This document shows positions 190 to 13,176 of a stretch of DNA of 38,298 bases, in pieces. How positions within the stretch are numbered: the first letter of the stretch is position 1; each line of letters begins with the position of its first letter. The position numbers and the translations under genes are program-made. The stretch spans positions 1-38,298 of the forward strand of contig JAKIHM010000022.1 in assembly GCA_021608145.1 (NCBI GenBank). The letters run 5' to 3'. The notes below the pieces were generated by a model, which saw nothing but the letters and a program-made list of their open reading frames with translations, was not told the DNA's origin and did no database searches. Origin of the DNA: Thermovorax subterraneus (GTDB lineage: Bacteria; Bacillota; Thermosediminibacteria; Thermosediminibacterales; Thermosediminibacteraceae).

Positions 190-1092
190 ATGAACATTCA
201 ATCCCTCAAGTCTTTTATAGCCATCGCAGAAACAAAATCCATGTCCCGGGCTGCGGAGCTCCTATTTGTTACACAACCCGCTCTGAGTCAGCAAATAAAA
301 CAATTAGAAACACATTTTTCGGTGCAATTACTCGAGAGAACCAATCGAGGCATTAAATTAACCGAAGCAGGTAAAATCCTATACGAACATGCCCGACAAA
401 TAGTAGCGCTCTACCAAACCCTTGAGAAAGAAATGGAAGGTTTTAGGGCATCGATAACAGGGAGCTTAGCAGTCGGAGCATCATCCATTGTAGGAGGTTA
501 CGCAGTGCCATGCAGCATTTTCATTTTTAAAGAAAAATATCCGGAGTCGCATATTACGCTAAAAGTTGGAAATAGAAGACAAATTTTAGACGACCTAAAA
601 GGCGGCACAATAGATATTGCTATCGTTGAGGGTGAAAAGCCCGATGGAAATTTATTTTCAAGCGAAATTGGAAATGATGAGATGGTCGTTATAGCGCCCA
701 ATAAAAAACCTTGGAATGAACGAAACTTTTTGAGTCTAGATGAATTTTTAAAACAGCCTCTTATTATGAGGGAAGAAGGCTCAGGGACAAGACAAACGAT
801 AGAAAAATATCTGTCCAAATTGGGCATAGATAAAAAACAACTGAATGTAGTTATGGAATTAAGCAGTGCTGATTCAATCAAAGCCGCTGTGGAAGCCGGA
901 CATGGTATTTCTATCATGCCAAAATTAGCTTTAAAAAAAGAACTCTACAATAAAACTCTAGTGGCTTTAAAAATAGAAAATATATCATTTTTCCAAAAAA
1001 TCTATATAGCTTACAAACAAGAAAAAACTCAAAGCAAAGTGGCTCAAGCTTTTATAAAATTCATGCATTCCCCTAACCGCGGTTTTTGTTAG
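190..1092 (+). CDS. LysR-family transcriptional regulator
   Basis: The 300-residue length is typical for LysR regulators. The N-terminus has the winged helix-turn-helix (roughly residues 2-60, with SRAAELLFVTQPALSQQIKQ as the recognition region). Residues 90-295 form a periplasmic-binding-protein-like effector domain containing GSGTR and SADSIKAAVEAGHGIS motifs like those of the CysB/CysL/YeiE branch. It lies upstream of a YeeE/YedE-TusA cluster. A TATAAG-N5-CTTATA inverted repeat in the 1.32-1.56 kb intergenic region is a plausible target, so it may control the sulfur/selenium genes. The effector is unknown. Its 3' end overlaps the convergent TusA-like gene by 20 bp. The start follows a purine-rich AAAAGGGTGAAG. 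Confidence 0.9.
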   Translation: MNIQSLKSFIAIAETKSMSRAAELLFVTQPALSQQIKQLETHFSVQLLERTNRGIKLTEAGKILYEHARQIVALYQTLEKEMEGFRASITGSLAVGASSIVGGYAVPCSIFIFKEKYPESHITLKVGNRRQILDDLKGGTIDIAIVEGEKPDGNLFSSEIGNDEMVVIAPNKKPWNERNFLSLDEFLKQPLIMREEGSGTRQTIEKYLSKLGIDKKQLNVVMELSSADSIKAAVEAGHGISIMPKLALKKELYNKTLVALKIENISFFQKIYIAYKQEKTQSKVAQAFIKFMHSPNRGFC

Positions 1093-1321
1093 CCTGAGAA
1101 GGTATGGTTATTGTCAATTTCCATATACCGTTGTCCACTTCTTCAACACTGCTTTTAAGTCTTCTCCTCTTCATCTCTTCTATTATTGTCGTAACAGCAC
1201 AACTGTGGTCGGTAAGAAGGACTATCCTGTCCCCCGGCTGCAGTTTTTTTATTTTTGACTGCACTTTAGAATTAGGTATAGGACACATATCTCCCAGTGC
1301 ATTTATAAAATATTCGGCCAT
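1073..1321 (-). CDS. TusA-like sulfurtransferase (first copy)
   Basis: A protein of 82 residues matching the whole TusA/SirA fold. The conserved active-site CPxP motif is present as MCPIPNSK (Cys13), followed by the typical LQPGDRIVLLTDHSCAV segment. TusA proteins carry persulfide sulfur, and in some systems selenium, on this Cys. The ATG at 1321 was chosen because GGAGG lies about 9 nt upstream; the longer frame starts at a GTG with no spacing from the Shine-Dalgarno. It is transcribed away from the YeeE cluster and converges on the LysR gene. A second TusA lies 1 kb away on the other strand, and the two sequences are clearly different. The specific acceptor is unknown. Confidence 0.85.
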   Translation of the reverse strand: MAEYFINALGDMCPIPNSKVQSKIKKLQPGDRIVLLTDHSCAVTTIIEEMKRRRLKSSVEEVDNGIWKLTITIPSQANKNRG

Positions 1322-1448
1322 TGTCTTCACTCCTCCGGCACGCCTTGAAAACAGCTCTCACAATACTTTTCGATATGAAATGTTTTCAACAAGCGGACAA
1401 AAATCTACCTCGAGTTCCTCATACTACAAAACTCTTCTGAACCACAGT

Positions 1449-2542: not shown

Positions 2543-3088
2543 GTGAGTAAATTTAAGGAAGAATCCGAAAAGTTGAAGAGAGCCTTATTAAAAGACCCTT
2601 TCCCTTACTGGCTGGGTGCAATATTTCTTGGATTATTGAATATAGTTATATTCATATTGACGAATCACGGCTGGGGTGTAACCACGTCCATTGCTCACTG
2701 GGGGGCATGGCTGGCAAAAGCTCTCGGCGCTTCCCCTGAAAAGTGGGCCTTTTATCAAAGCGAAGCAAACGCAAAAGCCCTATCTGGAGGATTTTTGCAG
2801 GACGGTGGTTCTATTCAAAATCTGGGCATTATTGTAGGCGCTTTACTCGCTGTTTTACTCGCTTCCCAGTTCAGAGTTAAAAAGATTAAAAGTTACAAGC
2901 AGGTTATAGCCGCAATTTTAGGCGGGCTCATGATGGGTTATGGCGCGAGGCTCTCCTACGGTTGAAACATTGGAGCACTTTTTAGCGGCACGGCTTCGAT
3001 GTCGCTTCACGGTTGGATTTTCTTCCTAGCCATGTTCATCGGCGCCTATTTGGGCTCAAAACTTCTCGTCAAGTATTTCCTTACTTGA
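2543..3088 (+). CDS. YeeE/YedE-family membrane protein, C-terminal half, predicted selenoprotein (UGA at 2963-2965 = Sec141)
   Basis: Starts at GTG 2543 after AGGGGGG. A normal reading stops at TGA 2963-2965 after GARLSYG. Past that codon the same frame reads NIGALFSGTASMSLHGW, a membrane-like tail, and ends at TGA 3086-3088, giving 181 residues. Family members read GARLxxGCNIGAxFSGxxSxSLHGW, so the UGA replaces the conserved Cys. A hairpin starts 18 nt later and could act as a bacterial SECIS. Together these support selenocysteine at residue 141. A Cys-to-stop mutation or sequencing error is possible but would be an odd coincidence at this exact codon, and the downstream frame is intact and conserved. 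It is probably the second half of the permease starting at 1563. I recall selenocysteine-containing YeeE/YedE relatives being described but cannot verify it here. Confidence 0.85.
2984..3006 (+). promoter_or_regulatory. Candidate bacterial SECIS hairpin
   Basis: AGCGGCA (2984-2990) pairs with TGTCGCT (3000-3006) in a 7-bp stem with one G-U pair. The 9-nt loop CGGCTTCGA contains a GG. The stem begins 18 nt after the in-frame UGA and the loop begins 25 nt after it, within the spacing known for SelB-recognised bacterial elements. It lies wholly inside the coding extension. SECIS sequence is poorly conserved between bacteria, so this is a structural prediction. Confidence 0.6.
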
Positions 3089-3092
3089 TTTT

Positions 3093-3113
3093 CGGCGGGG
3101 GTAACCCCCGCCG
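3093..3113 (+). other. Strong GC hairpin between the selenoprotein and the flavoprotein genes
   Basis: CGGCGGGGG (3093-3101) pairs perfectly with CCCCCGCCG (3105-3113) across a TAA loop. It begins 4 nt after the stop of the selenoprotein frame. There is no T run after it, so it looks like an mRNA-stabilising or processing hairpin rather than a full terminator. It could set different expression of the membrane genes and the downstream flavoprotein. Confidence 0.6.
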
Positions 3114-3154
3114 AGCTCATGAGCAGAAAAAATTTCTCACAAGGAGGAGCTGCA

Positions 3155-4393
3155 ATGCCGAAAAATATTGAATATTATGACGTCGTAGTCATCGGCGGTG
3201 GACCCGCCGGCATGACAGCTGCTATTTACTGCGGAAGGGCAAGATTAAAAACAATTTTATTGGAAAAAAACTTACTTGGAGGCCTTGCCACCTATACAAA
3301 TGAAATAGAAAACTATCCTGGATTCCCTGAAGGAAGCACCGGCAACGACTTAATGAAGCTTTTCGAAAGACAAGTAAAAAAATTCGGGGTGAAGATAAAG
3401 TACGCGGATGTAACGGGCGTAGAGTTAGAAGGTGAGACGAAAGTCGTAAAAACATTCAGAACTGATTATCATGCAAAGGTAGTTATCATCGCAACCGGCG
3501 GAAAGCCCCGACTTACTGGTGCAAAAAACGAAGAGAAATTTCTTTTCGGCAAAGGCATTTCTTTCTGTGCCACTTGCGATGCTGCTTACTATACTGGCAA
3601 GGACGTATTGGTTGTAGGTAGCGGAGATGCTGCCATTGAGGAATCCATATTTTTGAGCAGGTTTGCAAATAAAATATATATTTCCGTAATTCACGATGTT
3701 GGAATAATGGATGCAAATAAAGTGGCTCAGGAAGCTGCTTTAAAAAACGAAAAATTACATTTTATTTGGAACACAATGGTAGATGAGTTTGTGGGAGACG
3801 ACAAATTGGAAACTGTAATTTTACGGAACGTAAAGACTAATGAAAAAATTCCCGTAAATGTGGATGGTTGCTTCTTGTTTATCGGGTATGTACCAAATAC
3901 AGATATCTTTAAAGGTATACTCGACATGACCGAAAGAGGATATATAATAACAAATGAGAAGATGGAAACTAACATTCCCGGAGTATTCGCCTGTGGAGAT
4001 GTCAGAGAAAAACTTTTAAGGCAAGTTTCAACTTCTGTCGGAGACGGGGCTATTGCAGGATTTATGGCCGAAAAATACATCGCAGAAACTGAAACTTTTG
4101 AAAAGGAATTTAAAGGGGTAAAAGGACCTCAGCTAGTTTTTTGTTACGATCCTACCGATGCTCTGTCCCGGGAAAAAATGACCATAATTGAAGAGTACGG
4201 CAACCATCATCCCGAAATAAAATTAAACAAGATCGACGTTTATAAAGGGAAAGGACTTGCGCAAAGGTTGGGCATAAAAGGAGAACCCTGTTTAGTTCTT
4301 TTATTTGACGGAGAAATAAAAGAAATAGTGCCCCTTGTGGAAATTACAAGAAATTCATTAGAAGAAAAAGTAAGAACAATAATGCATAATTAA
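3155..4393 (+). CDS. Thioredoxin-reductase-like FAD/NAD(P)H oxidoreductase with C-terminal thioredoxin-like domain
   Basis: A protein of 412 residues. Residues 1-310 match low-molecular-weight thioredoxin reductases: FAD motif GGGPAG (about 14-19), redox pair CATC (Cys138/Cys141), nucleotide motif GSGDAA (about 153-158) and the C-terminal FAD motif ACGDV. After that comes an extra segment of about 85 residues with thioredoxin-like character (a Cys after PQLVF and GEPCLVLL near the end). Classic TrxB is about 310-320 residues, so this is a fusion or an extended subfamily. The start at 3155 was preferred over 3119 because AAGGAGG lies 7 nt before it. It follows the selenoprotein gene and is likely its redox partner (inference), perhaps reducing the persulfide or selenium intermediate. 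Confidence 0.85.
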   Translation: MPKNIEYYDVVVIGGGPAGMTAAIYCGRARLKTILLEKNLLGGLATYTNEIENYPGFPEGSTGNDLMKLFERQVKKFGVKIKYADVTGVELEGETKVVKTFRTDYHAKVVIIATGGKPRLTGAKNEEKFLFGKGISFCATCDAAYYTGKDVLVVGSGDAAIEESIFLSRFANKIYISVIHDVGIMDANKVAQEAALKNEKLHFIWNTMVDEFVGDDKLETVILRNVKTNEKIPVNVDGCFLFIGYVPNTDIFKGILDMTERGYIITNEKMETNIPGVFACGDVREKLLRQVSTSVGDGAIAGFMAEKYIAETETFEKEFKGVKGPQLVFCYDPTDALSREKMTIIEEYGNHHPEIKLNKIDVYKGKGLAQRLGIKGEPCLVLLFDGEIKEIVPLVEITRNSLEEKVRTIMHN

Positions 4394-12942: not shown

Positions 12943-12998
12943 AAAAATTCTTCTAAAACAGTACTCCCCCTTTCCTCCGAAGGCTTCGTACTAGAAAA

Positions 12999-13156
12999 CC
13001 AACAGGCAGGTCTCCTGGCTTCCGGTTCATCTTCCCTGCGCCTTCCCAGGATTTTTCATCCCAGTGGCCTAGCAGTTCATCCCCGGTTACAGTGGCGGGA
13101 CCGCTCAGGACTTTCACCTGATTCCCTTTTAAACCCAAAGGGTACCTGCTGGCAAC
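12999..13156 (-). promoter_or_regulatory. Cobalamin riboswitch aptamer
   Basis: The minus strand carries hallmarks of the adenosylcobalamin aptamer: GGGAATCAGGTGAAAGTCC, CGGTCCCGCCACTGTAACC, and the B12-box region GCCAGGAGACCTGCC near the 3' end. AGCAGGT near 13150 pairs with ACCTGCC near 13007 to close the outer helix. It precedes btuF, and the cobalamin operon runs from it. A promoter lies just upstream and a terminator downstream, so ligand binding should switch off the operon. Confidence 0.93.
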
Positions 13157-13176
13157 TATTCACTTTCCTTAAATTT

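Follow-up and report, generated by a model that had tools for sequence, protein, structure and literature searches.

We found that a split YeeE-type transporter gene of Thermovorax subterraneus very probably encodes a selenoprotein, with selenocysteine (Sec) inserted at codon 141 in response to an in-frame UGA at positions 2963–2965 of the window, by which we mean the whole stretch of 38,298 nucleotides that was analysed. The gene lies on the forward strand at 2543–3088, opens with a GTG codon preceded by AAAGGGGGGTCG and encodes the C-terminal half of YeeE in 181 codons before its final stop, the TGA at 3086–3088. Codon 141 is the TGA, in the context Y-G-[TGA]-N-I-G-A-L-F-S-G. A standard listing of open reading frames (ORFs) gives a protein of 140 amino acids that ends at 2965, and the initial annotation was right that ordinary gene calling truncates the product there and loses a conserved segment. 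Its claim that the frame continues past the TGA as YeeE/YedE sequence also held. The 181-residue read-through product matched PF04143 (Sulf_transp; gathering cut-off 27 bits) at 128 bits over residues 5–170, on either side of the TGA and covering profile positions 162–310, and the frame reaches its stop at 3086–3088. The column at residue 141 was invariant, with Cys in 16 of the 24 aligned rows and UGA in 8, which bears out the proposal that the TGA stands in place of a conserved Cys. In the part after the UGA, the window and a genome of the same family (G021) differed by 5.5 nonsynonymous and 17.5 synonymous changes (dN/dS of approximately 0.04), a pattern indicating that the frame 3′ of the UGA is under purifying selection.

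The UGA recurs in relatives. The same TGA was present in G021 and in two genomes of the window's own genus (G014 and G015), and a scan of 398 genomes of the phylum added six further carriers from another family (f18), the second, here called the Moorella family after the named records Moorella mulderi and M. thermoacetica. Within the order to which this family belongs, 22 genomes were scanned and six had close homologues, all six with UGA. The frame after the UGA was maintained in ten genomes of the two families. Named records bearing the UGA were M. mulderi DSM 14980, M. thermoacetica DSM 21394, Fervidicola ferrireducens Y170 and a Clostridia metagenome-assembled genome. The remaining relatives, several from the window's own order included, had Cys, as did a 53% relative in Acetoanaerobium noterae that was found in a plasmid search. 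A degenerate TGA motif gave 22 matches across 84,980 species genomes, of which 18 were chance occurrences in unrelated frames and 4 were true relatives; the motif is a restrictive one and may have missed Sec forms that have diverged further. Judged from these comparisons, the recurrence of the UGA in the same bacterial family and in a second one is far beyond chance, and the selenoprotein is conserved in both the Fervidicola group and the Moorella family rather than being specific to the window's genome. On a tree, the Sec or Cys label required two changes and was strongly clustered, which may reflect a double gain of Sec, transfer between lineages, or an ancestral Sec that was later replaced by Cys. 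At the Cys positions of the N-terminal half, no in-frame TGA was seen among the matches listed from the 398 phylum genomes except in G146, the match of which has an in-frame TGA and also a TAA within the aligned span.

A search downstream of the UGA, as proposed in the initial annotation, revealed a SECIS-like hairpin at 2984–3006 on the forward strand. Its 9-bp stem is capped by a GCUU apical loop (2993–2996) and has a single A bulging from the 3′ strand (2999), and its folding energy was −10.7 kcal/mol (z of −3.3 for 32 nucleotides, with 0 of 200 shuffles as good). The apical loop begins 28 nucleotides past the UGA, a spacing within the range of bacterial SECIS elements. The hairpin sits within a conserved core of 29 bases (2981–3009) that overlaps the coding sequence and was identical in 8 of 13 other UGA-bearing loci, some species being represented twice in this set, and one base off in the other 5 (28–29 of 29 bases identical). 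The Cys forms matched the core at 15 to 25 of the 29 bases, with the exception of G001 at 28 of 29. RNAalifold recovered the same hairpin as a structure common to all seven distinct Sec sequences, although the hairpin is almost invariant and covariation therefore cannot prove the pairing, and in the Fervidicola sequences, over windows of 50–60 nucleotides, an alternative pairing of similar energy competed with it (z of approximately −1.5). Codon conservation points to the same segment: codons 145–156 are all identical between the window and G021 (permutation P = 0.003), in a gene where 102 of 181 codons differ, and a comparison with G255, from the second family, likewise gave a longest unbroken stretch of 12 identical codons (P = 6 × 10−5). 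In these comparisons, synonymous change is unusually scarce over codons 145–156, with diverged synonymous sites flanking them. The Cys form of G001 (locus L028, 1501–2040, reverse strand) has TGC for TGA and differs at one base of the inner stem; its near-complete core could be a relic of a SECIS element left behind after a change from Sec to Cys.

The machinery for Sec insertion is encoded in the genome, and the selA, selB, selC and selD genes that the initial annotation had suggested seeking were all present. On contig 42, selA (624 bits) and selB (390 bits) stand in a row with the gene for tRNA-Sec (77 bits) just downstream, and contig 33 carries selD (396 bits), which has an in-frame TGA of its own, as does a formate dehydrogenase (907 bits). 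SelB scored above the cut-off in every UGA-form genome tested, and two Cys-form genomes (G011 and G013) gave only sub-threshold SelB matches. Three sequence marks of a bacterial selenoprotein, namely an in-frame UGA where homologues have Cys, a SECIS hairpin downstream of it (found here by computation) and SelA, SelB, tRNA-Sec and SelD in the same genome, were all found.

Other readings of the UGA fit these data poorly. Were it a real stop, the product would be a truncated or decaying YeeE half, which is where standard gene calling leaves it at 2965, but the conservation of the downstream frame across both families speaks against this, as do the intact neighbouring genes of the operon and the content of the part that would be lost, which holds the invariant pore residue and conserved motifs; we consider truncation very unlikely. 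A miscalled TGC or TGT deserves a thought in a draft genome of 44 contigs, TGA and TGC being one base apart. The independent assemblies of F. ferrireducens Y170, M. thermoacetica DSM 21394 and M. mulderi DSM 14980 carry the same TGA, together with the matching downstream element, and we rejected sequencing error on this ground as having a negligible chance of being correct; the initial annotation, which had named resequencing to TGC or TGT as fatal to its proposal, is supported on this point. TGA closes 9 of the 30 long ORFs in the window and is an ordinary stop for them, so a genome-wide reassignment of the codon was likewise rejected. These same stops also count against decoding of the UGA as Trp or Cys by suppression, a reading that gains what room it has from the fact that the inserted residue is read from sequence alone; given, in addition, a full Sec machinery and a UGA placed exactly at the Cys position with a SECIS-like hairpin following, we regard suppression as highly improbable. 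Insertion of Sec at codon 141 is the reading that we adopt below.

The gene belongs to an operon with the following neighbours, all on the forward strand. The N-terminal half of YeeE (1563–2246) matched PF04143 at 106 bits over profile positions 1–153, and since this gene and that at 2543–3088 cover complementary positions of the profile, they represent two halves of one YeeE. Between the halves is a gene for a TusA-like sulfur carrier with a CPVP motif (2303–2530; PF01206, 83.5 bits), for which the best NCBIfam matches were TsuB/YeeD and YedF, all below cut-off. Downstream is a thioredoxin-reductase (TrxR)-like flavoprotein with a CATC motif and a C-terminal extension (3155–4393; TIGR01292, 337 bits against a cut-off of 343), for which we prefer the ATG at 3155, with AAGGAGGAG upstream, to that at 3119. 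Upstream of the transporter genes is a LysR-type regulator of the selenium-metabolism subfamily (LysR_Sec_metab; 190–1092), which scored 272 bits to NF040786 (cut-off 250). M. mulderi has an identical gene set, consisting of the selenium-metabolism LysR (265 bits, same family), the YeeE N-terminal half, TusA, the YeeE C-terminal half and the TrxR-like flavoprotein. In the Sec loci checked, TusA occurs together with an N-terminal half that has both of its Cys residues. The TrxR-like flavoprotein adjoins the Sec gene in the loci of the Moorella family, and its motif was CATC across the loci checked, G021 alone having CSTC. G001 has the same operon in the Cys form, and in G020 the two YeeE halves are adjacent, with no TusA between them.

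The solved structures of the thiosulfate transporter TsuA place residue 141 in the transport path. Residues 91–170 of the C-terminal half aligned without gaps to residues 243–322 of TsuA (8J4C and 8K1R, and also 6LEO) in a phmmer search against solved structures, and this gap-free alignment sets residue 141 on Cys293, in the GCNIG motif of Spirochaeta thermophila TsuA. The N-terminal half aligned to 6LEO at E = 1.9 × 10−18, with its Cys72 on TsuA Cys22 and its Cys145 on TsuA Cys91 (numbers counted from the translation), so that all three relay positions of TsuA (22, 91 and 293) are matched in the alignment, by Cys72, Cys145 and Sec141. In TsuA, Cys293 acts first in the relay, Cys91 second, Cys22 third and the Cys of the TusA-like partner fourth (PMC11073785); roles for the three cysteines and the partner are also supported by PMC11582611. 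An AlphaFold model of the C-terminal half alone, built with 24 sequences, was poor (pLDDT 59, pTM 0.37), and the pore geometry is for this reason taken from the TsuA alignment.

From the UGA, the alignment, the conservation, the hairpin, the machinery and the operon, which were read from the sequence, we infer how Sec would be inserted, how the halves would assemble, what they would carry and what the flavoprotein would do. SelB and tRNA-Sec would insert Sec at the UGA, directed by the hairpin, and the two halves most likely form one heterodimeric YeeE channel. A chalcogen would pass from Sec141 on the outer side to Cys145 and then Cys72 of the N-terminal half, and from there to the Cys of the TusA-like carrier on the cytoplasmic side, with Sec serving as a more nucleophilic first acceptor than Cys. 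The cargo is probably a reduced chalcogen, such as thiosulfate, sulfane sulfur or a selenium analogue; homology to TsuA favours the first two, and the LysR family and a weak similarity to YedE/FdhT suggest selenium. The flavoprotein may provide reduction, either freeing the chalcogen from the carrier or keeping Sec and Cys reduced. When selenium is lacking, translation would end at residue 140 with loss of the pore residue and the last helix, which would make the transporter dependent on selenium. We hold this mechanism of sulfur or selenium transport to be fairly probable.

The role of selenium admits another account, in which Sec is present in an ordinary importer of thiosulfate or sulfur and only boosts reactivity, selenium not being the cargo. 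TsuA is the closest solved homologue, the Cys forms retain the same operon, and contig 33 encodes a separate YedE at a distance of approximately 0.4 kb from selD; this YedE is a full-length PF04143 protein, so the usual selenium-linked role of YedE may be filled elsewhere in the genome. Against a sulfur importer stand the selenium-metabolism LysR that adjoins the operon in both the window and M. mulderi, and the NCBIfam comparison, in which each of the two halves scored best with the selenium model YedE/FdhT, at values that fell well short of the cut-off. On balance we find it reasonably likely that sulfur is the cargo. An importer dedicated to selenium is a possible but unlikely reading; in that case the selenium-linked LysR next to the operon would control it, and the Sec pore residue would make it self-gating, through termination at the UGA when selenium runs out. 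A transporter dedicated to selenium has not been established in any organism, and Methanococcus maripaludis lacking yedE showed no clear selenium phenotype (PMC11097638).

The system resembles several that are known and coincides with none of them. Like S. thermophila TsuA/YeeE with YeeD/TsuB (6LEO, 8J4C and 8K1R), it has the three relay positions and a TusA-like partner encoded alongside; unlike TsuA, it consists of two genes with TusA between them, has Sec at the Cys293 position and is followed by a TrxR-like gene. The TsuA equivalog model NF052577 expects more than 400 bits from one protein, and the halves scored 46.5 and 72.5 bits, values that the split lowers. Within the same superfamily as selenium-linked YedE, the halves each scored approximately 108 bits to NF033796 (YedE/FdhT; cut-off 350), and the N-terminal half scored 43.8 bits to TIGR04112 (cut-off 200). 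In NF033796 the halves lie in the opposite order, the C-terminal half matching positions 13–161 and the N-terminal half 174–382. The YedE of contig 33 has the same reversed order relative to TsuA, and from their sequences the YedE/FdhT and TsuA families look as if they were circular permutations of each other.

The initial annotation had allowed that related Sec-containing members might already be known, and this is the case: in a published PF04143 protein, Sec takes the place of Cys in a motif that reads GUxSG (WP_012471001.1; PMC13188914 and PMC9312934). The motif in the window differs, being GUNIG rather than GUxSG, and by motif alone GUxSG resembles the Cys91-type motif (GCASG), not the Cys293 type. 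Split YeeE proteins are also on record, as the accessible portions of PMC11582611 and PMC5322559 describe two short genes that match the N- and C-terminal halves, PmpA/PmpB and archaeal YedE, and selenium-linked YedE and LysR; PmpA and PmpB are shorter, at approximately 130 amino acids, and in those portions Sec is not reported for PmpA/PmpB or archaeal split YedE. The class is therefore already known and the novelty reduced. The suggestion of a fresh instance encoded as a separate half-protein stands in so far as a GUNIG half-protein with Sec is concerned, but this protein is shared by relatives, and split halves and Sec-containing YeeE each have precedents. A full-text literature search that covered mainly openly available main texts found no description of the GUNIG site in Fervidicola or Moorella, although an earlier one may exist.

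Because the structures of this membrane transporter family are solved and its cysteine relay is defined, a Sec residue located in the transport path offers a clean test of what Sec adds at the first relay position. By implication, M. thermoacetica, a well-studied acetogen, has a GUNIG selenoprotein that standard gene calling would truncate ahead of the residue in the pore.

Several further features of the region were observed. A second TusA-like ORF with an MCPIPN motif (1073–1330, reverse strand) lies between the LysR gene and the transporter genes, and a similar ORF is found in M. mulderi (L054, 1021–1248). A G+C-rich inverted repeat, CGGCGGGGGTAACCCCCGCCG, without a T run, lies at 3093–3113 between the stop codon of the C-terminal half and the TrxR-like gene; G021 keeps a similar hairpin, and the repeat may be an attenuator or a processing site. 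The TrxR-like protein has approximately 100 extra C-terminal residues, possibly a thioredoxin-like domain, with an FCYDPTD motif that is the same in M. mulderi and reads LCYDPTD in G001. Farther along the window, a cobalamin riboswitch (12988–13164, reverse strand; 124 bits) is located near a run of reverse-strand genes that resembles cobalamin biosynthesis.
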